Notes under the pieces: generated by a model
The model's database searches: none
What the model saw: only the letters and a program-made list of their open reading frames with translations
Told to the model about the DNA's origin: nothing
Assembly: GCA_017467265.1 (NCBI GenBank)
Contig: JAFTSO010000007.1
Coordinates: 1-35,159, forward strand
DNA length: 35,159 nt
Reading direction: 5' to 3'
DNA from: Clostridia bacterium
GTDB lineage: Bacteria > Bacillota > Clostridia > Christensenellales > Borkfalkiaceae
Shown: piece by piece, positions 14,833 to 27,938 of the stretch
Position numbering within the stretch: position 1 is the first letter of the stretch
How the letters are laid out: each line of letters begins with the position of its first letter
Position numbers and translations under genes: made by a program

Positions 14833-15369
14833 ATGGAATTTCATACGGTTAACATCCGCGGTTTTGACGCACATTTGCCCATTTTGCCCCTGCCCAGCGG
14901 CATTTCGATCGCCTTTTTTAATCTGCACGGCGACAGCGCACTCACCGAGCATTGCGGCAAAGAACTCGCCAAAGAGCTCGCCGATTGCGACGTTTTGATC
15001 ACGGCGGAATCCAAGGGCTTGCAACTCACCCATTGTGTTGCGAGAGAACTGGGACAACGCTATTACGCGGTGGCAAGAAAGACCAAAAAACTGTATATGC
15101 AGGACGGCATCGAAATCGTCATCGAATCGTCCATCACCACGGGCAAGGAACAAAAAATGTATCTTTCCAAGCACGACGTTGACCTGCTGAAAGGCAAAAA
15201 GGTCGGCATCGTGGACGACGTAGTGTCCACAGGAGCGTCCTTGCACGGTTTGGAAGCGCTCGTCGAAAAGGCTGGCGGCATTATACATAAAAAAGCGTTC
15301 GTACTGGCAGAGGCAGATGCGGCGGATCGCCCCGATGTAATCTATTTGGCGAAAATCCCCCTGTTCTGA
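14833..15369 (+). CDS. Type I phosphoribosyltransferase (adenine PRT-like)
   Basis: A phosphoribosyltransferase of the type I fold, which transfers the ribose-5-phosphate group of PRPP to a base. The PRPP loop IVDDVVSTGAS is at residues 127-136, and residues 57-62 (ITAESKGL) form the pyrophosphate-side loop. The flexible-loop region spans ~83-112. The 178-residue length and HGD-x-LTEHCGKELAKEL region resemble adenine phosphoribosyltransferase relatives found in Clostridia, but substrate cannot be fixed: xanthine PRT or a regulatory PurR-like role are alternatives. AAGGAGAG precedes the ATG. It stands alone, with its own promoter and a 5' palindrome. Confidence 0.8.
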   Translation: MEFHTVNIRGFDAHLPILPLPSGISIAFFNLHGDSALTEHCGKELAKELADCDVLITAESKGLQLTHCVARELGQRYYAVARKTKKLYMQDGIEIVIESSITTGKEQKMYLSKHDVDLLKGKKVGIVDDVVSTGASLHGLEALVEKAGGIIHKKAFVLAEADAADRPDVIYLAKIPLF

Positions 15370-15508: not shown

Positions 15509-15533
15509 AAGGCAAGTTTACAAAACTTGCCTT
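15509..15533 (+). terminator. Rho-independent terminator upstream of the giant repeat gene
   Basis: A perfect 11-bp stem, AAGGCAAGTTT with AAACTTGCCTT around the loop ACA, is followed by TTCTTTTTT. It insulates the giant repeat gene from the phosphoribosyltransferase transcript. Confidence 0.88.
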
Positions 15534-15552: not shown

Positions 15553-15581
15553 TTGCAATTCGCCCTATTATAGTATATAAT
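15553..15581 (+). promoter_or_regulatory. Sigma-A promoter of the giant repeat protein gene
   Basis: -35 TTGCAA (15553-15558), 17-bp spacer, -10 TATAAT (15576-15581). It sits 20 bp after a strong terminator and 40 bp before the ATG, so the gene is its own transcription unit with a housekeeping promoter. Confidence 0.85.
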
Positions 15582-15621
15582 GTAAGTAGCACGTAAAAAT
15601 CCCTATAAAGGAGTACATATA

Positions 15622-18600
15622 ATGGCAGACGCTTATATCGAAGACGATTATAACCCAAAGAAACGCAACAGACGACCTAGAAAACGCCCTCGTTGGCCCT
15701 TTGTTATACTCGGCTTTTTAATCGGGTTTATTACCCTGCCCGCACTCATTTCGCTCACGGTACTGCTCATTGTCAACCGTCCCGTTGAAAAGACGGTGAA
15801 CACGATCGACAAGATTACCAACGTTGGGCTGTACGAAATGCTCTTCGGTACGGAAGGCGAAAACGGCGAAGACGGCAAGCTGGGTTATCTCGACGATCGC
15901 TATGGCGAAATGAAACTCAAAGATGCCCTTGGCGATATCGTGGATATTGCGCAAAAGGGCAATCAGCTCACGTTCAACGACTTGGCTACCATCTCTCCGC
16001 AGGTGGAAAAAGCGGTAGATGAGCTCGTCCAAGCCGCCGAAGAAAAGAGCATTATTCTCGACAAAATGGAACTGATGGCTACGCCCCTGTCCGGATTCTC
16101 CGACCTGTTGATGGACGAAGTAAAGGAAATTCAGCTGGGCGAAGTTTTGCTTGCAGTCAAACCCGATATCTTTGAAGACGAATCGACGGGCGCAATCCTG
16201 AAAAATCTCTTCTTTGGTAGAGCAGAAATCAATTATACGGAAAGCGACGGCGTAATTGAAATGCTCCCGATCACCTACACGTACGACGACCAAACGGATA
16301 CTTTTGTATGTGTGGACGAAACCGTTTACAAATACAACGGCGAAGTTTGGGAAACGGAAGACGGCGGATATATCAGCAAATCGGGTGACGCGTTCGCGTT
16401 CTATTCGTCCTACGGCGATCTTCTGTATCAGCTGCAACCCAGCAAAAGCAAGAGTATGACCTTCTATACGGCGTTCACCGTCAATTCCGAAGGCATTATC
16501 GAATACGTAAAACAACAATCGCTCGCACTCGGCTCGTTTATGGGCGACGGCGATCCGATGGCGATCATCGGAAAGCTGGAGCTGGGCGTTCTGCTCGGCA
16601 TCAACAGCCAAGAGGCGGCGGAATCGGACAATAACAATATGCTCGTTGCGCTCGCATACGGTACGTACGGCGTCGATTACACCTTTGAAAACGGCAAAGT
16701 CACACCCGTGCTCGGCGGCAAGGATTTCACCACGCTCGGCGATCTGATGAGCTCTCCCGACGAAGTGCTCAACAACGTACAGCTGGGTGCGATGCTCGGC
16801 ATCAAGACGAGAACGGACGCAGAAAAGGACGGCAACGAAATGCTCGTCGCGCTCGCATACGGTACGTACGGTATCGATTTTGAATACGACCTTGACGGCA
16901 CGATTATTCCCAAAGACGGCGGCAGAGAATTTACCACGCTCGGCGCGCTCATCAACGAACCGAACGATATTTTGAACGGTATTCAGCTCGGTTCGCTGCT
17001 CGGTATCTCCACGAGAGCGGAAGCGGAAAAGGACGGCAACGAAATGCTCGTCGCGCTCGCATACGGTACGTACGGCGTCGATTTCGAATACGACGCGCAA
17101 GACAACGTCATCCCGATGAGCGGCGGCAAGGAATTCACCACGCTCGGCTCACTCATTGAAAACCCCAACGACGTGCTCAATTCCATTCAGCTCGGTTCGA
17201 TGCTCGGCATCACGACGAGAACGGAAGCGGAAAAGGACGGTAACGAAATGCTCGTTGCGCTCGCATACGGCACGTACGGCGTTGATTTCGAATACGATAT
17301 TAACGGCAATATTATCGCAAAAGACGGCGGTAAGGATTTTACCACACTCGGCGAGCTCATCAATCATTCCGACCAAATTTTGGACGGAATCCAGCTCGGT
17401 GCACTGCTCGGTATCAAGACGAGAGCAGACGTAGATAGCGGCGAACACGATATGATGATCGCGATCGCATACGGTACGTACGACGTCGATTTCGAATACG
17501 ATGCAGACGATAACATTATTCCCAAGGCAGGCGGCGAGCCTTTCACCACGCTCGGCGAATTGCTCGACTCCCCCGACGCAGTATTGCAGGGCGTACAGGT
17601 CGGCGCACTCCTTGGTATCACCACGAAAGAAGACGTGGAGAAGAGCGACAGCTTGATGGTGTCCCTTGCGTACGGCACGTACGACGTCGATTTCGAATAC
17701 GATAGCAACAACAAGATTGTTGCCAAAGCAGGCGGCAAGCCTTTCACCACCGTTGCAACGTTGATGGATCCGGACGAAGTGAATACGATTTTGGAAGATA
17801 TTCCCCTTTCCACCATCTTCACGGTAGATATTTTCGATCCGAACGCAGACGCGCTCACCGTATCGCTCATTTACGGTACGGCTGGCAAACATTACGTCAT
17901 CGCGGAAGAGAACGGCAAAAAATATATCGACTGGCAGATCGATCCCGATACGGGCGCTCCGTATAGCGAACGCACCTTCGGCGATATCCGCAAAGGCAAT
18001 CTCACCGAATTCGTCAACGACCTGAAAGTGGGCGACGTGTTCGAATTGACGGCAACTTCCCCTAAACTCCTTGTCGCAATCCAAGACTGGTACGTTTCCG
18101 ATCTTGGCAAACAAGAAAAGATCAATTCACTCCAACTTAAAGACGTCATTGACGTAGGCACGGAAGGCGTGTTGGCGGAAATGGGCGAATGGCAGATCGG
18201 CGAAATCAGCGAAAGCAAGATCAAATCGATCAAGCTGTCCAGCGTTCTGAACGTCAATGCAGGAGACACGGGTTTGATCGCGTCCTTGGCAAACAAGAAA
18301 GACGACGCAGGCAATCCTTGGACGATCGCACATCTTACCGAAGCCAACGTGCAGAATTTGACGGTGGGCGAAGTATTGCCCAGCGCGCTCGGCGCGGATG
18401 CGGAAACGGACTTCTTTGCAGCGCTTAAAGACGCAAAGATCGGCGATTTGAACGCAACGTACATCAAAGAACAGCTGACCATCGGGCAGGTTTTGGGTAT
18501 TAAGACAACGGACGAAGGCATTTTGGCGACGTTCGCAAACTACAAAGTAGGCGATTTCACCGAAGGCGCATTAAAGAGCGAGCTGACGATCGGCGACGTA

Positions 18601-19578
18601 ATCGACGCGGACGCACACCCCATCTTGGGCAAGTTGGCAAGCACGCCGTTGGATCAGGTCGATAATGCAGCGATTGAGAACGCACTCAACGATTTGCAGC
18701 TGTCCGAAGTCATTGAAATCGACCACCCCCTGTTTAAGTATATGGCAACCAAAAAGCTGGGCGAAATCGACGCGGCGTTCATCGACGGCATTAAGGTAAA
18801 AGACGCGTTGGGCATCGAATCGACCACCGATCCCATCTTAACGCAAATTATGGATCTTAAACTCGGCGATCTGAAAGATTCTACTTTGCTCAAAGATAAA
18901 ATCACGAATTTGCAGCTCAATCAGCTGCTGGAAGTAAGCGGTATTCCCGTTCTGGAACAGCTCGGCTCTTACAAACTTAACGAGCTGGACGAAGAAACGA
19001 TCAACGAATTAAAGATCTGCGAAATTCTCGGCATCGAAGACCCCGACAGCGATTTCTATTTCAAGCACTTGAAGACTTCCACTATCGGGACGATGGTGAG
19101 CGATATTGACAATCTCACCGTTGTACAGCTCTTTGAAGATACGATGGAATACGACGAGCACGGCAATATTGCTGGTACTTGGAAATATCTGTTGACGCAT
19201 AACACGGACGAATCAGTCGAAAACCCTCCGAACAAGGATTACGTTGCTCCCGACAAGTACAAAGTGTCGGATATGGCGGCGATGATCGAAAATATGCACA
19301 ACAATATCGAAGAGGCAACGCTGTGGGATTTGCACGACGATAAACTGGCAGCGCATCTCGACGAAGAGACGTTGAACGCAGAGCTGGTGTACAGAATTGC
19401 AGGCGTAGATTTCTCGACGCAGGTAAAAGCTATCACGGGCATCACGACGATTGTCGATACGGACGATAACGGCACGATCGACGATGCAACCGTCGGCGAT
19501 CTCAACGTATTGCAGGTATCGCAATATCTGTCCTTGGTGCTCAATGCCATCCAAGGCAATATTTCAGGCGTGCTCTAA
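15622..19578 (+). CDS. Giant single-pass repeat ectodomain protein, unknown function
   Basis: I do not recognise this 1318-residue protein. The N-terminus is short and very basic (KKRNRRPRKRPRWPF, residues 12-26), then one membrane segment (~27-52, FVILGFLIGFITLPALISL start). By the positive-inside rule the remaining ~1265 residues lie outside the cell. No LPXTG, SLH or other wall-anchoring motif is seen. The ectodomain is acidic and built from one recurring motif, x-(I/L)-x-LG-x-(L/V)LGI...(M/I)L..LA...(I/L)G(D/E)L. Residues 321-728 hold six long units of ~68 residues. Residues ~834-1173 hold about ten short units of 33-43 residues. AAAGGAG precedes the ATG. It has its own promoter and terminator. 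Structural, adhesive or envelope-spanning roles are possible; nothing in it points to an enzyme. Confidence 0.85.
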   Translation: MADAYIEDDYNPKKRNRRPRKRPRWPFVILGFLIGFITLPALISLTVLLIVNRPVEKTVNTIDKITNVGLYEMLFGTEGENGEDGKLGYLDDRYGEMKLKDALGDIVDIAQKGNQLTFNDLATISPQVEKAVDELVQAAEEKSIILDKMELMATPLSGFSDLLMDEVKEIQLGEVLLAVKPDIFEDESTGAILKNLFFGRAEINYTESDGVIEMLPITYTYDDQTDTFVCVDETVYKYNGEVWETEDGGYISKSGDAFAFYSSYGDLLYQLQPSKSKSMTFYTAFTVNSEGIIEYVKQQSLALGSFMGDGDPMAIIGKLELGVLLGINSQEAAESDNNNMLVALAYGTYGVDYTFENGKVTPVLGGKDFTTLGDLMSSPDEVLNNVQLGAMLGIKTRTDAEKDGNEMLVALAYGTYGIDFEYDLDGTIIPKDGGREFTTLGALINEPNDILNGIQLGSLLGISTRAEAEKDGNEMLVALAYGTYGVDFEYDAQDNVIPMSGGKEFTTLGSLIENPNDVLNSIQLGSMLGITTRTEAEKDGNEMLVALAYGTYGVDFEYDINGNIIAKDGGKDFTTLGELINHSDQILDGIQLGALLGIKTRADVDSGEHDMMIAIAYGTYDVDFEYDADDNIIPKAGGEPFTTLGELLDSPDAVLQGVQVGALLGITTKEDVEKSDSLMVSLAYGTYDVDFEYDSNNKIVAKAGGKPFTTVATLMDPDEVNTILEDIPLSTIFTVDIFDPNADALTVSLIYGTAGKHYVIAEENGKKYIDWQIDPDTGAPYSERTFGDIRKGNLTEFVNDLKVGDVFELTATSPKLLVAIQDWYVSDLGKQEKINSLQLKDVIDVGTEGVLAEMGEWQIGEISESKIKSIKLSSVLNVNAGDTGLIASLANKKDDAGNPWTIAHLTEANVQNLTVGEVLPSALGADAETDFFAALKDAKIGDLNATYIKEQLTIGQVLGIKTTDEGILATFANYKVGDFTEGALKSELTIGDVIDADAHPILGKLASTPLDQVDNAAIENALNDLQLSEVIEIDHPLFKYMATKKLGEIDAAFIDGIKVKDALGIESTTDPILTQIMDLKLGDLKDSTLLKDKITNLQLNQLLEVSGIPVLEQLGSYKLNELDEETINELKICEILGIEDPDSDFYFKHLKTSTIGTMVSDIDNLTVVQLFEDTMEYDEHGNIAGTWKYLLTHNTDESVENPPNKDYVAPDKYKVSDMAAMIENMHNNIEEATLWDLHDDKLAAHLDEETLNAELVYRIAGVDFSTQVKAITGITTIVDTDDNGTIDDATVGDLNVLQVSQYLSLVLNAIQGNISGVL
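16582..17805 (+). repeat. Six tandem ~204-bp repeats inside the giant protein gene
   Basis: Units start at 16582, 16783, 16987, 17191, 17395 and 17599, encoding 67, 68, 68, 68, 68 and 69 residues. Each reads LGxLLGIxTR...MLVALAYGTYGVDFEYD...GGKxFTTLGxLI..PNDVLNxIQ in pieces. Units 2-4 are nearly identical at DNA level over AAGGACGGCAACGAAATGCT and the bases after it, suggesting recent duplication or homogenisation. The flanking units 1, 5 and 6 have diverged. Confidence 0.95.
18121..19140 (+). repeat. About ten short diverged repeats of the same motif
   Basis: Units of 33-43 residues begin at about residues 834, 867, 910, 950, 986, 1023 and onward. Each has a (N/E)xLxLxxVLxI start and a (I/L)LxxLAxxKxGDL end. 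They read like the long units without the YGTYGVDFEYD...GGK insertion. Protein-level repeat; the DNA is well diverged. Confidence 0.8.
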
Positions 19579-19592
19579 CAACAAAAAACAGC

Positions 19593-19622
19593 GAACACCC
19601 GAACGAATGCGCTCGGGTGTTC
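19593..19622 (+). terminator. Rho-independent terminator after the giant repeat gene
   Basis: A perfect 10-bp stem GAACACCCGA/TCGGGTGTTC with a 10-nt loop, followed by six T. It starts 15 bp after the stop codon. Confidence 0.9.
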
Positions 19623-19777: not shown

Positions 19778-20062
19778 ATGGCTAAATACGAAATGCTCTA
19801 TCTGATCAACAACGATCTTAGCGACGAAGCAAAAGAAGCGAAAGTTGCAAAGTTCGAAAACGTTGTTACGTCTATGGGCGGTTCCGTTGCTGGCTCGGAC
19901 AAGTGGGGTACGAAGAAAACCGCATACCCTATCAACTTCAAGAACGAAGCATACTACGTTCTGATGACGTTCGAAGCTGACGGGAAAGTCGTAGAAGAGC
20001 TGAAGCGTATCGCGCTCATCGACGCAGATATCGTTAGACGCTTGATCACGAAGCTCAACTAA
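19778..20062 (+). CDS. rpsF: 30S ribosomal protein S6
   Basis: S6 (bS6) binds with S18 to the central domain of 16S rRNA. The 94-residue product opens with MAKYEMLYLINNDLSDEAKE and contains the conserved SDKWGTKKTAYPINFKNEAY-type segment (residues ~44-62), followed by YYVLMTFEADGKVVEELKR and the RRLITKL end. AGGAGGTG is correctly spaced from the ATG at 19778; the in-frame GTG 9 bp upstream lies inside that ribosome binding site and is not the start. It is the first gene of the classic rpsF-ssb-rpsR unit, behind a probable autoregulatory leader. Confidence 0.97.
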   Translation: MAKYEMLYLINNDLSDEAKEAKVAKFENVVTSMGGSVAGSDKWGTKKTAYPINFKNEAYYVLMTFEADGKVVEELKRIALIDADIVRRLITKLN

Positions 20063-20082: not shown

Positions 20083-20502
20083 ATGAACAAAGTATTTTTG
20101 ATCGGAAACTTGACGCGCGATCCTGAACTGCGCGAAACCCCTTCCGGCGTTGCAATGTGCCGTTTTGGTATCGCTGTGCAAAGACCCTACTCTTCGTCCG
20201 AGGGCGAAAGACAGGCTGATTTCTTTGATTGCACCGCTTGGCGTGGTTTGGCAGAAACGATCGCACGCTACACCAAAAAAGGCAACAAGGTTGCTGTCAC
20301 GGGTAGTATTCAGATCCGCAACTATGAAGATAACCAAGGCGTAAAACGTAATGCTGTGGATATCATCGTACAAGATTGCGAATTCCTGACACCGAAAGCC
20401 AGCGATTCGTTTGACGACGTTGCCGACGCGCCTCGTGCGTCTGCGCCCAAGAAGAAACCTACTTTGCAAGCGATGGACGACGACAGCGATATTCCGTTCT
20501 AA
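20083..20502 (+). CDS. ssb: Single-stranded DNA-binding protein
   Basis: SSB coats single-stranded DNA in replication, repair and recombination and recruits partners. Residues 1-~105 form the OB fold: MNKVFLIGNLTRDPELRETP start, FGIAVQRPY, DFFDCTAWRGLAETIARY, GNKVAVTGSIQIRNYED and the AVDIIVQDCEFL end. A disordered linker follows. The tail ends DDDSDIPF, the acidic tip that binds SSB-interacting proteins. The 139-residue length is usual. AGAGGG precedes the ATG, 20 bp after rpsF. Its position between rpsF and rpsR is conserved across Bacillota. Confidence 0.97.
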   Translation: MNKVFLIGNLTRDPELRETPSGVAMCRFGIAVQRPYSSSEGERQADFFDCTAWRGLAETIARYTKKGNKVAVTGSIQIRNYEDNQGVKRNAVDIIVQDCEFLTPKASDSFDDVADAPRASAPKKKPTLQAMDDDSDIPF

Positions 20503-20539: not shown

Positions 20540-20788
20540 ATGGAAGAAAAAGCACCTGTTAAAAAGGCATTTAAGAAAGCGCCCCGTAAAAAGGTTTGCG
20601 CGTTCTGCCAGGAAAAACTGGACGCAATCGATTACAAAGACGTAAACCGTCTTAAAAAATTCATCACGGAAGGCGGCAAAATCCTGCCCCGTAGAATGAG
20701 CGGTACGTGCGCAGCACACCAAAGAATCCTTGCAACGGCTATCAAACGTGCAAGAATTACGGCTCTTCTCCCCTTCAAAGGCGAGTAA
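20540..20788 (+). CDS. rpsR: 30S ribosomal protein S18
   Basis: S18 (bS18) forms a heterodimer with S6 on the 30S platform. The 82-residue product has a basic N-terminal extension (residues 1-~22), [22 protein letters not shown] with the CxxC zinc-binding pair, then [20 protein letters not shown] and [18 protein letters not shown], the nearly invariant C-terminus. The CxxC plus the later Cys and His suggest the zinc-containing (C+) form of S18. AAAGGAG precedes the ATG. It is the last gene of its operon, followed by a strong terminator. Confidence 0.97.
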
Positions 20789-20845: not shown

Positions 20846-21412
20846 TTACGTTTCCATTAAGCCTGCCGCACGGAGAGCCGCCAAAATCTCATTGATCTTC
20901 TCCGCGTTGGTGACCGTCGTCGCGTCCGTAGCCACCGTGTCCGCTACCGCCGCCGCAGGCGTCACCACTCCAGGCTCACCCTGCGGACCTTGTGGACCAG
21001 CAGGTCCTACTTCACCTTGCGGACCAGCAGGGCCGACAGGACCTTGTTCCCCTTGTGGACCAGCAGGACCGACAGGACCTTGTTCCCCTTGTGGACCAGC
21101 AGGACCGACAGGACCTACTTCGCCCTGAATACCCTGTTCGCCTTGCGGACCTTGTTCGCCCTGTATGCCTTGGATACCCTGAACGCCTTGTTCGCCCTGT
21201 ACCCCTTGTACGCCTTGAACGCCCTGTTCACCCTGCGGACCAGCCGGACCGGCAGGGCCTACTTCGCCTTGTGGACCTTGCGGACCGACAGGACCAGCCG
21301 GACCGATTGGCCCTGCGATATAACGGGGAATCGGATTAATATACACGCCGTTTGCCGACGACGCGCAGCCGCCGAAACAGCCGCACGTGTTTTCATTTTG
21401 ATGACAATACAT
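20846..21412 (-). CDS. Collagen-like (Gly-X-Y) repeat protein
   Basis: A 188-residue protein. Residues 1-33 form a short N-terminal domain with four Cys ([16 protein letters not shown]) that could cross-link or bind metal. Residues 34-147 are 38 uninterrupted Gly-X-Y triplets, mostly [12 protein letters not shown] and GIQ, which should form a collagen triple helix. Residues 148-188 are an Ala/Thr-rich C-terminal part ending [16 protein letters not shown], likely a trimerisation helix. There is no signal peptide. In spore formers such proteins are usually on the exosporium or spore surface (BclA-like), which fits the sporulation genes here, but this is inference. AGGAGGG 10 bp upstream supports the ATG at 21412 over the longer ORF. 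No vegetative promoter was clear. Confidence 0.88.
20972..21313 (-). repeat. Gly-X-Y coding repeat, 38 triplets
   Basis: A 9-bp-periodic region encoding 38 perfect Gly-X-Y triplets. Several larger blocks recur, e.g. the segment coding [12 protein letters not shown] twice in a row, so slippage length variation between strains is likely. Confidence 0.92.
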
Positions 21413-21495
21413 AAAATTTTTCCCTCCTGATAATACAAGAGCGCAAAACGCTCTCCATACAATATATGTCCGCAGAGAAAAACCCGTGAAAAAAC

Positions 21496-21518
21496 AGCCC
21501 CGACTTACCATCAGGGCC
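21496..21518 (-). terminator. Rho-independent terminator after the second GT-C-like gene
   Basis: Minus strand: GGCCCTGA pairs with TCGGGGCT (8 bp, two G-U) around a 7-nt loop, followed by GTTTTTT. It lies 8 bp after the stop. Confidence 0.75.
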
Positions 21519-21525
21519 GTCCTTT

Positions 21526-23634
21526 TTATTCGTCTTTCTTTTTCTTTTGCCAGAGCACAAGCCCGACCACAACGCTGCCAAGCGTGATCGCGCCCACCGC
21601 CGTCAGGGCGTTTGCCATCGTTAAATACGGCACAAAATATTCCACGTACAACGTGCCGCTCTCCGTGATTTCCGCCTCCAAAAATCCGTTCCTGCCGTGC
21701 ATTGGCGTGATCGAAACGCGCCTACCGTTCCCCGTCGCCAACGTCAAACGATACCCTTTATAATAATAGGACGGGAGCTCTAAAACGCCGCCGTCTGCCC
21801 CAGCCGTCACATCCACAGAATATTTGCCTGCGTGTTCTTTTTGAAGGTTCGTCGCGGTCACGTCCCCCGACAAAACCAAAACGCCAAAGGCGTTTTCCAA
21901 GAGATACGCCTTGAATAACGGCGCGTCCTTATAGTACAAAATGATTTTACTTTCCTTGTCATACGTGGGGAAGATGAGCTTTGTCTGTGCACCGCCGTCA
22001 TAGCTTTCCGCCGTAATCGGCAACCTCGCGTTTGTATAAGCCTTTTCAAAGCGGTAGAGCGCAACGCCGTCAAAGAGCGCATACGGAATATCGAGCACGG
22101 CATATCCACCTTTTTCCGCCACAAACGAGAGCTGCTGTAACGCATCGTAATCAGCAAGCTCGTAATTGCGCACGTCCGTATTCGAGATCAAACTGCTATT
22201 TAAGCGACTTGCAACGTATTCACTCGTACACCCCTTAGGAAAATAATCCCCGTTTTTGCGTACACCTAATCCATTGAACTCTTCAAACCCCGAAACCTGT
22301 GCCATTGGCGAGTTGACGTCCGTAGTGGACAAAACTCTGCGGAAGAGCGAAAAAGGCATACCGATTACGTTGGCGACACAAAGCAAACCACAAAACCACA
22401 CCGCAATTTTTTGCCATTTTTTATCTTTGCATACGTTATTTTTATGTATTGCAAGCGTTTCTCCAAGGGTATTTTTCGTCTTGAAATCGCTATTTCCTGT
22501 TTTCGATTTCGTCAGCACGTCGCCACACAATTTCCCGTTCGCGAGAGTTGCCACCTGCAAAGAAATCAAAATCCCCCCGATAATCATTAAGCGGAAGGGA
22601 TATTGAATCATACCCATAACCTTGGGTAATGCCCCCCATGGAAAAAACGGAGAATACATACCGAGCAGCAGTCCCCACAACACAATTAAAGACAGTCTAT
22701 CCTTCACCCGTTTTTCTTTTTCCGTGCGGAAATAGTTTATCGCATATACCATCCCCACTAGCGAGACGTATGCAAAGCCCGTCAGCAGATAAAAATTCCC
22801 AAACCCACCAAGGCTATTATAAAAAAGCGTCTTTGCGCTTCTACCCATCTTCTCCGTTTCCGTTACCGCATAGTTAGAAAACATAGGCAATAGATACGTC
22901 GCGGAAAGCAGCACGGCAATCGCCGCCGCGCCTGCAAGAGCGGCGAGATTTTTCTTCGTGAACGTCTGTTTGAAATGCACCAGCAGCCACACCGCCAAAA
23001 ACAGCGCGATGTACACCGTCATTGTCAGGTGCAGGAAAATCGAAAGCGCAAAGCCGAGCACGAACAGTGCGAAAAACACCGCATAATTTTTTCTGTAAAA
23101 CAGCTCGTACACACTCCACGCAATCATCGGGATCGAGAGCAATAAAAAGATTTCCGAAAAGGCAAAACGCACGTACACGTCCCACAGGAAATACGGGAAC
23201 AGAATATACGTCACCGCGCCGATCGCCGCCGTGCGCCCGTCACCAAAGACTCTGCGCAGGAAAGAATAGACGACAATACCGCCTGCGGCAAACAGCAAGA
23301 CGAGCTCGACGTAAATACTGCCGATCATCGAAAGCCCGAGCGTTTTCATCAAAATCACACACAATCCGCCAGGGATCGTGGAATAGAACAGCCCCGTACC
23401 ATACCCGTAATCGCCGCCGATAAGCTCCATTACTTTGCTAAAAAAATTACCTTTATCCCACGCCGCGGACAAACTTCTAATGACACCGTAATGATATTTC
23501 AAATCGTGCCCCGATTGCAGATTGGAAAATAACAGCGGCAAAAATTCCAACGCTGCAATCAGGAATAATAGCCCGCAGACCGCCGCGTGAAATTTTTTCG
23601 TATTCTGTTTTTCTTTCAAAAAATCCTTGATCAT
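21526..23634 (-). CDS. Multi-pass membrane protein, GT-C/PTPS-related family (paralogue B)
   Basis: A 702-residue protein with about a dozen membrane segments in the first ~400 residues and a soluble beta-rich domain, then a last membrane helix and a KKKKDE tail. The first outside loop has [19 protein letters not shown] and [13 protein letters not shown]. This arrangement is seen in the so-called 6-pyruvoyl-tetrahydropterin-synthase-related membrane proteins and in YfhO-like GT-C glycosyltransferases. A role in moving sugars from lipid carriers to envelope glycans is plausible but not shown. It is a paralogue of the gene upstream, from which it is separated by 10 bp. The ATG at 23634 has only a weak AAGAAG ribosome binding site, so coupling is likely. 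A Lys/Asn-rich insert (near residue 400) looks unlike the rest. Confidence 0.78.
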
Positions 23635-23644
23635 AGCCGCTTCT

Positions 23645-25768
23645 TTATTCCTTTTCGGTTTTGATTTCCTTTTTTGTTTTGCAAAGTACGCACCAAACGA
23701 CAACGCCGCCAAAGAGCGCAACGCCCACCGCCGTCAGCGCGTTCGCCGCCGTCAAATAGGGCGCGGAAAATTCCACGTACAGTCTGCCGCTCTCCGTGAT
23801 TTCCACTTCCAAAAAACCGTTTCTGCCGTGTATCGGCGTGATCGAAACGCGCCTACCGTCCCCCGTCACCAACGTCAAACGATACCCCTTATAATAATAG
23901 GAAGGGAGCTCTAAAACGCCGCCGTCTGCCCCAGCCGTCACGTCCACAGAATATTTGCCTGCGCGTTCTTTTTGAAGGTTCGTCGCGGTCACGTCCCCCG
24001 ACAAAGCCAAAACACCAAAGGCTTTTTCCGAGAGATACGCCTTGAATAACGGCGCGTTTTTATACGACAAAATCACCTTGCTCTCGTTCCCGTCGTTTGC
24101 CACCGTCAGCAGCGTTTTCGCGCCGCCGTCATACTGCTCCGCCGTAATCCCGATACGCCGATTACTGCTCGTCGTGCGGAAACGGAAAATCTCCACGCCG
24201 TCGAACATTTCGTACGGCACGTTGAGCACCACGTACCCGTTCTCCGTCTTAGGCACAACAAAAGACACCTGCTCAAGCGCGCGATAATCGGCAAGCTCCG
24301 ACACTTTCAAATTCGTATTGGAAACGATCTCTCCCACCAAACGGGTAGACACGTAAGCCCATTTGCAATTCTTCGGAAAATAATCGCCGTGTTTTCCAGC
24401 GCCCAGCGCGTAAAATTCACTACGTCCCGTCAGCTCGTCCAGTGCCACGTTCGCGCTCGTAGCCGCTTGATCGTACGCGGAAAGCATCGCGCGGTTATGC
24501 GATACACCCACCGTGCCGCAATAGGCAAACCCTGCACAGAGCAGCACCATCGGTATGAATTTGACGAGATTTTTCCAAACAAAGTTTTTTTGTCTGCGGA
24601 TAATCTCCGCAGACTCGGGCGCGGCGTTCGGCGCGCCGCGCAACCGTTTCCGTCTTTCTAACAGCGATCCAAAAATTTGCTGTATCAGCACGCACACCTG
24701 CAACGGCGCAAGCATACACCCCAAGAGCAACACGCGGAACGTGTATTGAATCATCCGCAAAAAATTGGGCATATATTGCCACGGGAAATAATGCGTGAAC
24801 AGCACGGGCACGAGTAGCGAACACACAAACAGCGCCGTCCTGCCTGCCGTGCGTTTTCTTCGCGCCAAGAACACGTACCAAAGCGCATAAATCACCGACA
24901 GCCCCACCGCAAATTTATAATCCCACATCAGAATTTCTTCGGTAAAATATTTTTTGGTGTTCACTTCCATTTGCGCGGGCGTTTTGCTCATACCATCCGT
25001 TGCGGTGACCCCGTAATTGACCAGCATCGGCAGATAATAGCTCGCCGTGAGAAAACCCACCACCGCCGCGCCGATTGCGAAATACAACACGTTTTTCCCT
25101 TTGAACACACGCCTGCAATCGATAAGCAACCACACTGCGATTAGCAACGTGATATACACCGTCATCGTCAAATGCGCGTATATGGAAAGCGTATAGCCCA
25201 CGATAAACAACGGCAAAAATGCGCGCGGATTGTTGCGATACAACAGCTCGTACACGCCCCAAACAATGAGCGGCATTGCGAGCATTAAAAAGATTTCGCT
25301 AAACGCAAAGCGCACGTACAAATCCCACCAAAAATAGGGATGACACAGATACACCGTCGCCCCGATCGCGCCAAGTGCGTTGCTGTTAAATACTCTGCGA
25401 AGAAAGAAATACACGATGATGGACGCGCTGCAAAAGAGCAAGAACAGCTCTACGTACAGCGCCCACATCACAGGCAGAGAAAACACCTGCATCAATAAAA
25501 CGCAAAGCCCTGCCGGGAGCGTGGAATAGAACAGCCCCGTACCGTACCCGTAATCACCGCCTACCAGCTCGACGAGCTTACCAAAGAAATCACCCTTTTC
25601 CCAAGCAGCCGAGAGCGCACGTATCACGCCCAAGTGATATTTTAGATCGTGCCCAGACTGTTTTTCGGACGTGCCGAACGGCAGCAAAATCAACGCCGCT
25701 GCGATCGCCAACGCCGCGCAGATTATCAGATGAAAATATTTGCTTGTATAAAAACCTTTCTTTGCCAT
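23645..25768 (-). CDS. Multi-pass membrane protein, GT-C/PTPS-related family (paralogue A)
   Basis: A 707-residue paralogue of the gene downstream with the same layout: N-terminal membrane helix, [32 protein letters not shown], a series of membrane segments to ~residue 430, a soluble beta-rich domain, and a C-terminal helix with a charged tail. N-terminal halves of the pair are moderately alike, whereas about 110 residues near the C-terminus (from FKAYL to ANALTAVG) are almost identical. The function is probably glycosyl transfer or envelope glycolipid work, inferred from the fold type only. Start is set at the ATG before AKKGFYTSK; the longer ORF would begin inside the tRNA terminator. The gene lies 62 bp after tRNA-Arg with a terminator between and no obvious promoter of its own. 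Confidence 0.78.
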   Translation of the reverse strand: MAKKGFYTSKYFHLIICAALAIAAALILLPFGTSEKQSGHDLKYHLGVIRALSAAWEKGDFFGKLVELVGGDYGYGTGLFYSTLPAGLCVLLMQVFSLPVMWALYVELFLLFCSASIIVYFFLRRVFNSNALGAIGATVYLCHPYFWWDLYVRFAFSEIFLMLAMPLIVWGVYELLYRNNPRAFLPLFIVGYTLSIYAHLTMTVYITLLIAVWLLIDCRRVFKGKNVLYFAIGAAVVGFLTASYYLPMLVNYGVTATDGMSKTPAQMEVNTKKYFTEEILMWDYKFAVGLSVIYALWYVFLARRKRTAGRTALFVCSLLVPVLFTHYFPWQYMPNFLRMIQYTFRVLLLGCMLAPLQVCVLIQQIFGSLLERRKRLRGAPNAAPESAEIIRRQKNFVWKNLVKFIPMVLLCAGFAYCGTVGVSHNRAMLSAYDQAATSANVALDELTGRSEFYALGAGKHGDYFPKNCKWAYVSTRLVGEIVSNTNLKVSELADYRALEQVSFVVPKTENGYVVLNVPYEMFDGVEIFRFRTTSSNRRIGITAEQYDGGAKTLLTVANDGNESKVILSYKNAPLFKAYLSEKAFGVLALSGDVTATNLQKERAGKYSVDVTAGADGGVLELPSYYYKGYRLTLVTGDGRRVSITPIHGRNGFLEVEITESGRLYVEFSAPYLTAANALTAVGVALFGGVVVWCVLCKTKKEIKTEKE

Positions 25769-25797
25769 CTGCGTATATTTCCGTAAGATAAGGAAAA

Positions 25798-25825
25798 ACG
25801 GATCAAGGCGCAAACCGTGATCCGT
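25798..25825 (-). terminator. Terminator after tRNA-Arg
   Basis: A perfect 8-bp stem ACGGATCA/TGATCCGT followed by TTTTTCC on the minus strand, 6 bp after the CCA end of the tRNA. T-rich on the plus strand as well. Confidence 0.75.
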
Positions 25826-26084: not shown

Positions 26085-27938
26085 TTATTCCATCAATAAC
26101 GCCGCGCCGCCCAAAAGCCCAGCCGAATTTCCCAGCTGCGCGATAACGATAGGCACTTGCGGTCCTAACTCTCCTGCAAACAACTCTTTGTTCAGCTGTA
26201 CCTGCAACGGTTTTACCAGCTCGTCGCCCTGCGCGCATACGCCGCCGCCTAAAATCACCACTTCGGGACGGAAAATGTTGGCGAAATTCGTAATACCACA
26301 AGCGAGGTTTGCAATATACCTGTCCACAACCGCTTTGGCGTACTCGTCCACGTCCTTATAATCGAACGCAGTCTTACCCGTCACCTTATCAAGCGCTCCG
26401 ATCTCCCACATCTTACTGTTCGGGTTCGCCTCCATCGCGCGTTTTGTATCGCGAATAATTGCCGTCGCCGACGCATACGCCTCCAAACACCCCTTTCTAC
26501 CGCAAGTGCATTGTTCGCCGCCAGCCACGATGACTGCGTGCCCCAGCTCCGCACCGGCAGACTTGTTGCCTTCCACCAGCTTGCCGTCCACGACGATACC
26601 GCCACCTACGCCCGTGCCAAGCGTCAACAAAATCGCATTTTCATAGCCTTTGGCTACGCCGAATTTCACTTCGCCGAGTGCCGCCACGTTGGCGTCGTTC
26701 GCAATTTTCACACGCAAGCCCGTGAGTGCAGCCACTTTCGGCCCGATCGCAAAATCCTTCCACGCCAAGTTGTTCGAATAGATCACGTTCCCGTTTTTAC
26801 TGTCGATCATACCGGGAACCCCCATACCGATGCCCTCCACGTCGTCCGTGCCCAGCCCCACTTTGGCAAGCAATTTCTTTACGAGCGCCGCGATGTTCTC
26901 CGCGACCTGTTCCGCGCCTTTGTCACTCTCCGTAGGCGCTTTGTCTTCATAGATGATATTGCCCAGATCGTCCACGATACCGCCCTTGATGAACGTACCG
27001 CCAAGATCGATCCCCACGTAATATTTCCGCACTTCATAGGCAATGAGGTGCATATTCCCCGTCAAAAGGACTTCGCCGCTGCCAGCCGGCACAAACCAGC
27101 TATCCCCCAACGTCACCTTTTTGCCGTCGATCGTACCCTCACCGCTTACGCACGTCACACATTTGAACGTGTTTTTATCGACAAAAAGGCTCTTTTCCCC
27201 CGAAACGCACACCGCCGTCGTCGTGAAATAGCGGCTAATCCCTAACAGTTCACCCTGCGCCGTCGCGATCGAGAGCGGATCGTATTCGTATTTTTCGAGC
27301 GCCGTCACCTTCAACGCCTTTTCCACGTGCAACTCGCGCTCTTTCCCGTTCTTGTCCTTTCTGCCGTAATCGTACACGCGGTACGTCAGGTTGCTGTTTT
27401 GCTGAATTTCGCAAATCAAACACCCCGAACCGATCGCGTGAATCGTACCCGACGGGATAAAATAACACTCCCCTGCCTGTACCTCAAAAAAGTTCAAAAG
27501 ATCGGTAAGCGTATGGTTTTTGATCGCGGTTTCATATTCCGCTTTCGTCACGTCGCGCTTGAATCCCAAATAGATCCCAGCCCCTTTCTCCGCCTCGACG
27601 ATATACCACATCTCCGTCTTACCAAAGCTATTCTCATTCTTTAACGCGTACGCGTCCGAAGGGTGTACCTGCACAGACAGGTCTTGCTTTGCATCGATCA
27701 GTTTTGCCAACATCGGGAAAAAGGGAAAATCTTTACAGTTTTTACCCAAATCCTGCTCCGTCGCCGTATCCTGCAACGTCGCGCCGTTTTCCAGACGGGT
27801 AGGTCCGTCCTTGTGGAAGGACAGCTCCCAGCTCTCCGCGACGGGATCTTTGTCCGTCTGCTTGCCGTACTTTTCCTTCAATTTTACGCCGCCCCAAATA
27901 TTGTCTTTACACTCGGGATACAATTTTACGATTTCCAT
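26085..27938 (-). CDS. manA: Mannose-6-phosphate isomerase fused to ROK-family sugar kinase
   Basis: One 617-residue chain with two sugar enzymes. Residues 1-~304 are a type I mannose-6-phosphate isomerase (mannose-6-P to fructose-6-P), with the zinc ligands Gln90, His92, Glu109 and His167 in QVHPSDAY, FGKTEMWY and PSGTIHAIG. Residues ~306-617 are a ROK kinase: phosphate loop DLGGTFIKGG at 311-320, ANDANVAALGE, LGTGVGGG, and the ROK zinc motif ELGHAVI...CTCGRKGCLEAYAS. ROK glucokinases usually start with K-YYVGIDLGGT, so the junction (YEVRKYYVGID) looks like loss of the stop and start between two adjacent genes. The kinase substrate may be glucose or mannose. It is 15 bp after the upstream membrane-protein gene. 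Confidence 0.93.
   Translation of the reverse strand: MEIVKLYPECKDNIWGGVKLKEKYGKQTDKDPVAESWELSFHKDGPTRLENGATLQDTATEQDLGKNCKDFPFFPMLAKLIDAKQDLSVQVHPSDAYALKNENSFGKTEMWYIVEAEKGAGIYLGFKRDVTKAEYETAIKNHTLTDLLNFFEVQAGECYFIPSGTIHAIGSGCLICEIQQNSNLTYRVYDYGRKDKNGKERELHVEKALKVTALEKYEYDPLSIATAQGELLGISRYFTTTAVCVSGEKSLFVDKNTFKCVTCVSGEGTIDGKKVTLGDSWFVPAGSGEVLLTGNMHLIAYEVRKYYVGIDLGGTFIKGGIVDDLGNIIYEDKAPTESDKGAEQVAENIAALVKKLLAKVGLGTDDVEGIGMGVPGMIDSKNGNVIYSNNLAWKDFAIGPKVAALTGLRVKIANDANVAALGEVKFGVAKGYENAILLTLGTGVGGGIVVDGKLVEGNKSAGAELGHAVIVAGGEQCTCGRKGCLEAYASATAIIRDTKRAMEANPNSKMWEIGALDKVTGKTAFDYKDVDEYAKAVVDRYIANLACGITNFANIFRPEVVILGGGVCAQGDELVKPLQVQLNKELFAGELGPQVPIVIAQLGNSAGLLGGAALLME

Follow-up and report, generated by a model that had tools for sequence, protein, structure and literature searches.

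An apparently undescribed family of membrane-anchored repeat proteins from one order of Clostridia, with a possibly new repeat fold

What kind of protein is encoded by a very long gene for whose product the databases of known families offer no name, and what might it do at the cell envelope? This question is raised by a stretch of 35,159 nucleotides (contig JAFTSO010000007.1 of a Clostridia bacterium from the family Borkfalkiaceae; the whole stretch is referred to as the window), which carries at positions 15622-19578 of the forward strand an open reading frame of 1318 amino acids without interruption. The original prediction, made from the letters of the DNA alone, had described it as a single-pass protein with an ectodomain built from one repeat, possibly a rod or solenoid serving as a scaffold, adhesin or conduit. 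Our analysis confirms the observation and partly supports its interpretation. The gene represents a real protein family, apparently undescribed so far, from a single bacterial order. Its members can be placed among the membrane-anchored surface rods, a class that is already known, and the fold of their repeat is possibly new.

Anatomy, repeats and predicted fold

The protein starts with a basic stub (residues 1-26, positions 15622..15699; isoelectric point (pI) 10.5, net charge +5), which we take to be cytoplasmic, and continues with the only membrane helix suggested by hydropathy (residues 27-52, 15700..15777). Windows of 19 residues with a mean hydropathy above 1.6 start at residues 24-37 only, and a helix at 27-53, with low confidence there, is also present in the AlphaFold model of the close ortholog L031 (SVHT01000003.1, 'Clostridiales bacterium isolate SIG391', 1001 amino acids, 56% identity in the best segment). 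The remaining residues, 53-1318, form a strongly acidic ectodomain (pI 4.11, net charge -137). Length, stub, helix and acidity were thus as originally described.

The ectodomain consists of an N-terminal region (residues 53-318, 15778..16575), seven long repeat units (319-800, 16576..18021), ten short ones (801-1164, 18022..19113) and a conserved C-terminal domain (1165-1318, 19114..19575); the N- and C-terminal domains are conserved parts separate from the repeat array. Units begin with the motif L-x-[ILV]-x-x-[VIL]-[LI] and have a core rich in leucine and isoleucine. The 17 clear units within residues 319-1164 comprise six of 67-68 residues, one of 76 and ten of 32-43. The repetition is far above chance: the identity at a lag of 68 residues over 319-724 is 48%, compared to at most 13% in 200 shuffles, and the ten short units reach a pairwise score of 30.0 versus 18.5 in 100 shuffles (standard deviation 0.61, maximum 20.2). 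An 18th, interrupted unit probably starts at residue 170 in the N-terminal region, where the head scores 29.3 versus a maximum of 25.5 in 500 shuffles and the tail scores within the shuffle range. The clear units make up 846 of the 1266 ectodomain residues, or 995 if the unit from residue 170 is counted, so that an ectodomain built almost wholly from one repeat was somewhat overstated. Iteration on the family yielded a short-unit profile of 34 positions, which detects 139 copies among 40 family proteins, with zero copies in four of them (L106, L111, L112 and L114). The units are quite divergent, with a mean column identity of 27% across 28 units from four proteins.

Residues 590-987, which contain eight of the 17 clear units, were modelled with AlphaFold from six rows, representing the window protein and L031 only. 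The best model has a mean predicted local distance difference test score (pLDDT) of 83.1 and a predicted template modelling score of 0.56. Its secondary structure is dominated by short helices, and each short unit runs through beta bridge, short helix, loop, helix, second bridge, short helix and helix, in this order, the bridges of the coils being single-residue ones. The long units appear in the model as the short core with an inserted beta hairpin. The same pattern of helices and bridges is found at residues 521-790 of the L031 model, where pLDDT per block of ten residues is 61-83. The repeats are therefore predicted to form an ordered solenoid built from short helices and single-residue beta bridges, and the proposed outward-reaching rod is in line with this modelling. 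It is possible, as far as the models can tell, that they represent a new class of solenoid.

None of the searches run matched the repeat confidently to a characterised domain. Pfam gave zero families for the window protein up to E 10, and its repeat models (LRR, TPR, ARM, hexapeptide etc.) matched neither this protein nor the seven relatives scanned. Four NCBIfam models matched the window protein, all far under the cut-off; one of these, TIGR03883, was weak and judged to be noise. The Pfam and NCBIfam scan of seven relatives likewise gave matches below the cut-off only. TrkA_C and SporV_AA, which are no repeat families and occurred below the cut-off in one relative, were judged to be noise, as were TIGR04464 and the other weak library matches in relatives. 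The same holds for phrog_22662 of PHROGs, an entry of unknown function that matched the window protein over 47 residues (E 5.7e-6). Neither the whole protein nor the unit profile matched a sequence in the PDB. Foldseek gave no match below E 1 against the PDB (best 1.4 and 3.6, for query models predicted from six and five rows) and none that is convincing against BFVD (best E 0.70). In the open-licence literature that was searched, we found no account of such a protein. These results agree with the earlier view that no described family has this architecture.

Two side observations concern the ends of these proteins. Directly before the last conserved helix of the C-terminal domain lies an acidic loop (residues 1279-1293, positions 19456-19500) that we take to be EF-hand-like; it also occurs in the C-termini of L031 and L036 and was not seen in some other members. 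The genus members L042 and L044 have a long tail rich in proline, glutamine and alanine ahead of the membrane helix.

Distribution and conservation of the family

The gene is the sole match in its own genome (an assembly that is 79% complete, with 1.39 Mb in 53 contigs) and was detected in 32 of the 34 genus genomes examined. The two misses are G006 (86% complete, 150 contigs) and G015 (61% complete). This count combines 25 genomes from a single-sequence search with nine more, all nine of which were matched by profile; 39 of the profile misses in the family-wide search were taken, from row order, to include none of the genus. The single-sequence search had marked 20 of 41 genomes, and 19 of the 25 from the same genus after the match in G034, by its letters presumably a glycerol kinase, was dropped. 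Of its misses, G001 was later recovered by profile, and G003, G008 and G012 in a further search.

For the wider survey we used a profile of the conserved N-terminal stretch (A1, residues 27-203), one of the C-terminal domain (A2), each built from 19 sequences, and the short-unit profile. L034 (genome G010), whose N-terminal part is missing in frame and whose match contains a stop, was kept out of A1, and L042, cut by a contig end, out of A2. A1 matched 62 of 121 family genomes, 14 of the 62 being from the same genus, and 30 of 297 genomes of the order, ten of them outside the family and weak. L111 (family f10), with an A1 E-value of 8.4e-4 and later of 0.004 and 0.002, does not appear in the final tally. 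Class-wide, A2 matched 6 of 291 genomes. Four belong to the same family, and the other two were not counted as members: G025, from the same order, matched weakly, as did G551 from outside the order (E 4.4e-5), whose match contains a stop. The short-unit profile matched 4 of 291 genomes in the class sample (three of the same family, one of family f28) and 1 of 199 in the phylum sample, which is the window's own genome; all of these lie within the order. Convincing members beyond the order were not found in these class-wide and phylum-wide profile samples.

An anchor region at the N-terminus, a repeat core and a conserved C-terminal domain constitute the shared plan of the family, some relatives not being scored by all three profiles. 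The A2 alignment retains four invariant columns across its 19 sequences. All single-sequence and A1 matches of a family genome fall at one place, so there is one locus per genome. Length varies greatly, with stop-to-stop reading frames of 401 (L129) to 3291 amino acids (L107). L031 possesses three long units, one of the 76-residue type and six short ones before its C-terminal part, compared to six, one and ten in the window protein, so that copies are gained and lost between related species. For residues 1-452 the comparison with L031 gives a nonsynonymous substitution rate (dN) of 0.31 and a synonymous rate (dS) of 1.61 (dN/dS about 0.19), which points to purifying selection on this part; the estimate is limited to these residues, since the C-terminal part gave no dS estimate.

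Two members stand out. The longest one (L107:9602-19474, 3291 amino acids) lies at the usual place before rpsF and contains one copy by the short-unit profile, so that its repeats have diverged or are of a different kind. L196:6267-10404, from family f28 and a genome of 1.1 Mb, is split by an apparent frameshift near the membrane helix, which could be an assembly error.

Gene neighbourhoods

In the window, the repeat gene is preceded on the same strand by a gene of 178 codons with a phosphoribosyltransferase domain (14833..15369; PF00156, E 4e-8), a terminator-like hairpin (15509..15533), a promoter-like site TTGCAA-17-TATAAT (15553..15581, 10 of 12 consensus positions) and a ribosome binding site AAAGGAG (15607..15613) 8 nt before the ATG. 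A second terminator-like hairpin follows (19593..19622); it was called on the reverse strand and has a T run on the forward strand too. The gene is probably transcribed alone, because it is flanked by terminator-like hairpins and has its own promoter-like site and ribosome binding site. All the signals named in the original prediction were hence recovered, the promoter and terminators as consensus matches, of which the scan of 7 kb produced 12 promoter-like and 17 terminator-like ones versus 7.6 and 10.1 in shuffles. Downstream, on the same strand, are three genes that we take from their translations to be rpsF (19778-20062), ssb (20083-20502) and rpsR (20540-20788).

This arrangement is widely kept. 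Within the family, rpsF follows the repeat gene on the same strand, as the first gene of rpsF-ssb-rpsR, in 34 of the 36 loci with downstream room (21/21 for 20 genus genomes together with L031, whose membership in the genus is assumed, and 13/15 for other genera); L099 and L115 have room and no rpsF, and five further loci are cut off by the end of a contig. The distance to rpsF is at most 250 bp except in L043 (1117 bp) and L114 (881 bp). Upstream, the phosphoribosyltransferase gene is present in the same orientation at 19 of the 24 loci from 23 genus genomes plus L031.

A different neighbour is found in the two sister families f3 and f24. There the repeat gene lies directly 3' of cvpA in all ten loci, with gaps of -70 to 53 bp. 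Seven of these loci were picked by similarity of the repeat protein and three (L198, L216 and L217) through a search for yyaC; the CvpA identity (PF02674) was established by Pfam for three loci and for the rest by similarity to those or by profile. Two f24 loci, L127 and L216, link the two gene contexts, since cvpA lies just upstream of the repeat gene and rpsF follows at a distance of 4.1 and 5.4 kb. The simplest history would be an ancestral row of yyaC, cvpA, the repeat gene and, further on, rpsF that was later split in the Borkfalkiaceae. The suggested survey of neighbourhoods in relatives has thereby yielded two recurrent contexts.

The gene yyaC (PF06866, confirmed for two loci) stands divergently beside the pair of cvpA and repeat gene in nine loci (L108, L109, L110, L125, L126, L127, L128, L198 and L216), and ftsH is next to yyaC in all of these except L128, where the stretch ends. 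In L217, cvpA and yyaC are 4.6 kb apart. The search for yyaC sampled 20 loci from thirteen families. Three, all from f3 or f24, have the repeat gene after cvpA, and one f24 locus ends at yyaC; of the remaining sixteen, twelve contain a cvpA-like gene but lack the repeat gene, and in the other four no such cvpA-like gene is within reach. In eight loci of the window's own family that were chosen around cvpA, yyaC adjoins cvpA in 8/8 and no repeat gene was seen. The cvpA gene of L145 was seen in the genome-wide search for cvpA-type genes only and not in the locus view.

Beyond rpsR the window contains, all on the reverse strand, a collagen-like repeat protein (20846-21511; PF01391, E 2e-19) directly after it, two adjacent and similar-looking large reading frames with hydrophobic stretches and zero Pfam families (21526-23721 and 23645-25813), and a single reading frame in which mannose-6-phosphate isomerase domains are fused to a ROK domain (26085-27938).

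Possible function and comparison with known systems

The explanation that we favour, and to which we give about an even chance, is that of a wall-spanning solenoid acting as tether or spacer, whose conserved ends do the work together with CvpA. The protein would cross the membrane once, as a type II (N-in) protein, and belong to a monoderm envelope, the latter being assumed because Omp85 (PF01103) was found in 0 of 31 genomes (control positive in 7 of 14). By the positive-inside reading its N-terminus would lie inside, and the acidic solenoid would point out into the zone of the wall. The conserved region near the membrane and the conserved C-terminal tip would be the working parts, and the solenoid would carry the tip through the wall, its length drifting by gain and loss of units. 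The ends are conserved and the number of units is variable, which leads us to see the functional parts in the former and a spacer or tether in the array. Cooperation with CvpA, the immediate gene neighbour in two sister families, is suggested by the tight pairing of the genes there.

Several results weigh against this explanation. The link to CvpA is weakened by the window's own family, in which the two genes are separate: in none of 41 loci (two with little room) was a cvpA detected ahead of the repeat gene, although 85 of 101 family genomes have a cvpA-type match, 74 of them above the cut-off. The window's own, incomplete genome gave no cvpA-type match, and the surroundings of yyaC sampled in eleven other families of the order lacked the repeat gene. 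No SLH or other wall-binding domain was recognised in the protein by Pfam or the pattern scan, as the original prediction had stated. With regard to the fold, the other four models of residues 590-987 have pLDDT values of 74, 72, 57 and 47, so that the five range from 83 to 47, and the full-length L031 model is weak (pLDDT 55 overall, 50-62 in the long units, mostly below 50 at the ends); order, rather than a disordered chain, was obtained for the modelled segment of eight units. Finally, the protein is recognised in only the said 62 of 121 family genomes, with recognition fading fast. A more far-reaching version combines an unsolved solenoid class for the 34-position unit, an outward arm of an undescribed CvpA-linked apparatus of monoderm Clostridia, and an array length that acts as an evolvable ruler across the wall; as a whole it is conceivable, but rather doubtful.

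Among the possible roles, a tether or scaffold fits best. A scaffold would offer binding sites for peptidoglycan, teichoic-type polymers or envelope enzymes all along its repeats. The long repeat surface, the retention of the gene in spite of variable length and the CvpA neighbourhood in two families fit such a role, but no known binding module was found in the Pfam and NCBIfam scans and the units differ strongly from each other, as reflected by their low column identity, and we consider it unlikely. With a similarly small chance, the protein might be a surface adhesin whose variable repeats attach to host, mucus or polysaccharide and change in response to environmental selection. The great range of lengths, the fast change of sequence across the order, the acidic ectodomain and the modelled beta-hairpin decoration of the long units would suit an adhesin. 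However, this role is weakened by the one conserved locus per genome and its presence in nearly all genus genomes examined, by the conserved C-terminal domain and the low dN/dS of residues 1-452, and by the pattern scan of the protein, in which LPXTG, NPQTN, lipobox, SLH-like and RGD patterns were all absent.

A conduit for lipids or hydrophobic polymers, as in AsmA and TamB, is very unlikely. A long membrane-anchored repeat ectodomain with a core rich in leucine and isoleucine could be expected of a conduit, but AsmA-type family models have zero matches in the window protein and seven relatives, and a conduit of this type is unsupported because no Omp85, and so probably no outer membrane to be fed, was found in the 31 genomes and because the predicted coils of short helices and single-residue bridges offer no extended beta groove. 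That the protein has no dedicated role and simply drifts, as its rapid divergence and unit turnover might suggest, is highly improbable in view of the purifying selection, the conserved ends and position and the retention in 32 of 34 genus genomes.

The protein is unannotated, and its gene occupies the same single locus in almost all genomes sampled from the genus, which makes it a promising candidate for a so far unknown component of the monoderm envelope. Moreover, the neighbourhood in the sister families offers a handle on CvpA, a widespread multi-pass membrane protein that is known mainly through phenotypes and for which, to our knowledge, no mechanism has been described. Its gene is required for deoxycholate resistance in enterohaemorrhagic Escherichia coli, Vibrio cholerae and V. 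parahaemolyticus, as reported in one study (PMC6705877).

How does the repeat protein compare with known systems? CvpA (Colicin V production protein family) is a genomic partner, adjacent upstream in f3 and f24, and not a homolog; it is a short membrane protein, unlike the long repeat protein, and in the window's own family it is found elsewhere, beside yyaC. AsmA- and TamB-like bridges resemble the repeat protein in that they are anchored in the membrane at the N-terminus and have a long ectodomain of repeats within the envelope, whereas the repeat protein differs in lacking a family match and an Omp85 counterpart among the genomes searched and in its predicted fold. With leucine-rich and other short-coil solenoids it shares, as far as predicted, a short coil made of a small beta element and helices, but it has no Pfam repeat family or Foldseek match in the PDB below E 1. 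The sortase-anchored repeat stalk adhesins of monoderms likewise present a long outer rod of repeats in variable copy number. In contrast to these stalks, the repeat protein has no LPXTG motif and is anchored by an N-terminal helix, carries a conserved C-terminal tip and is encoded at one locus beside housekeeping genes.

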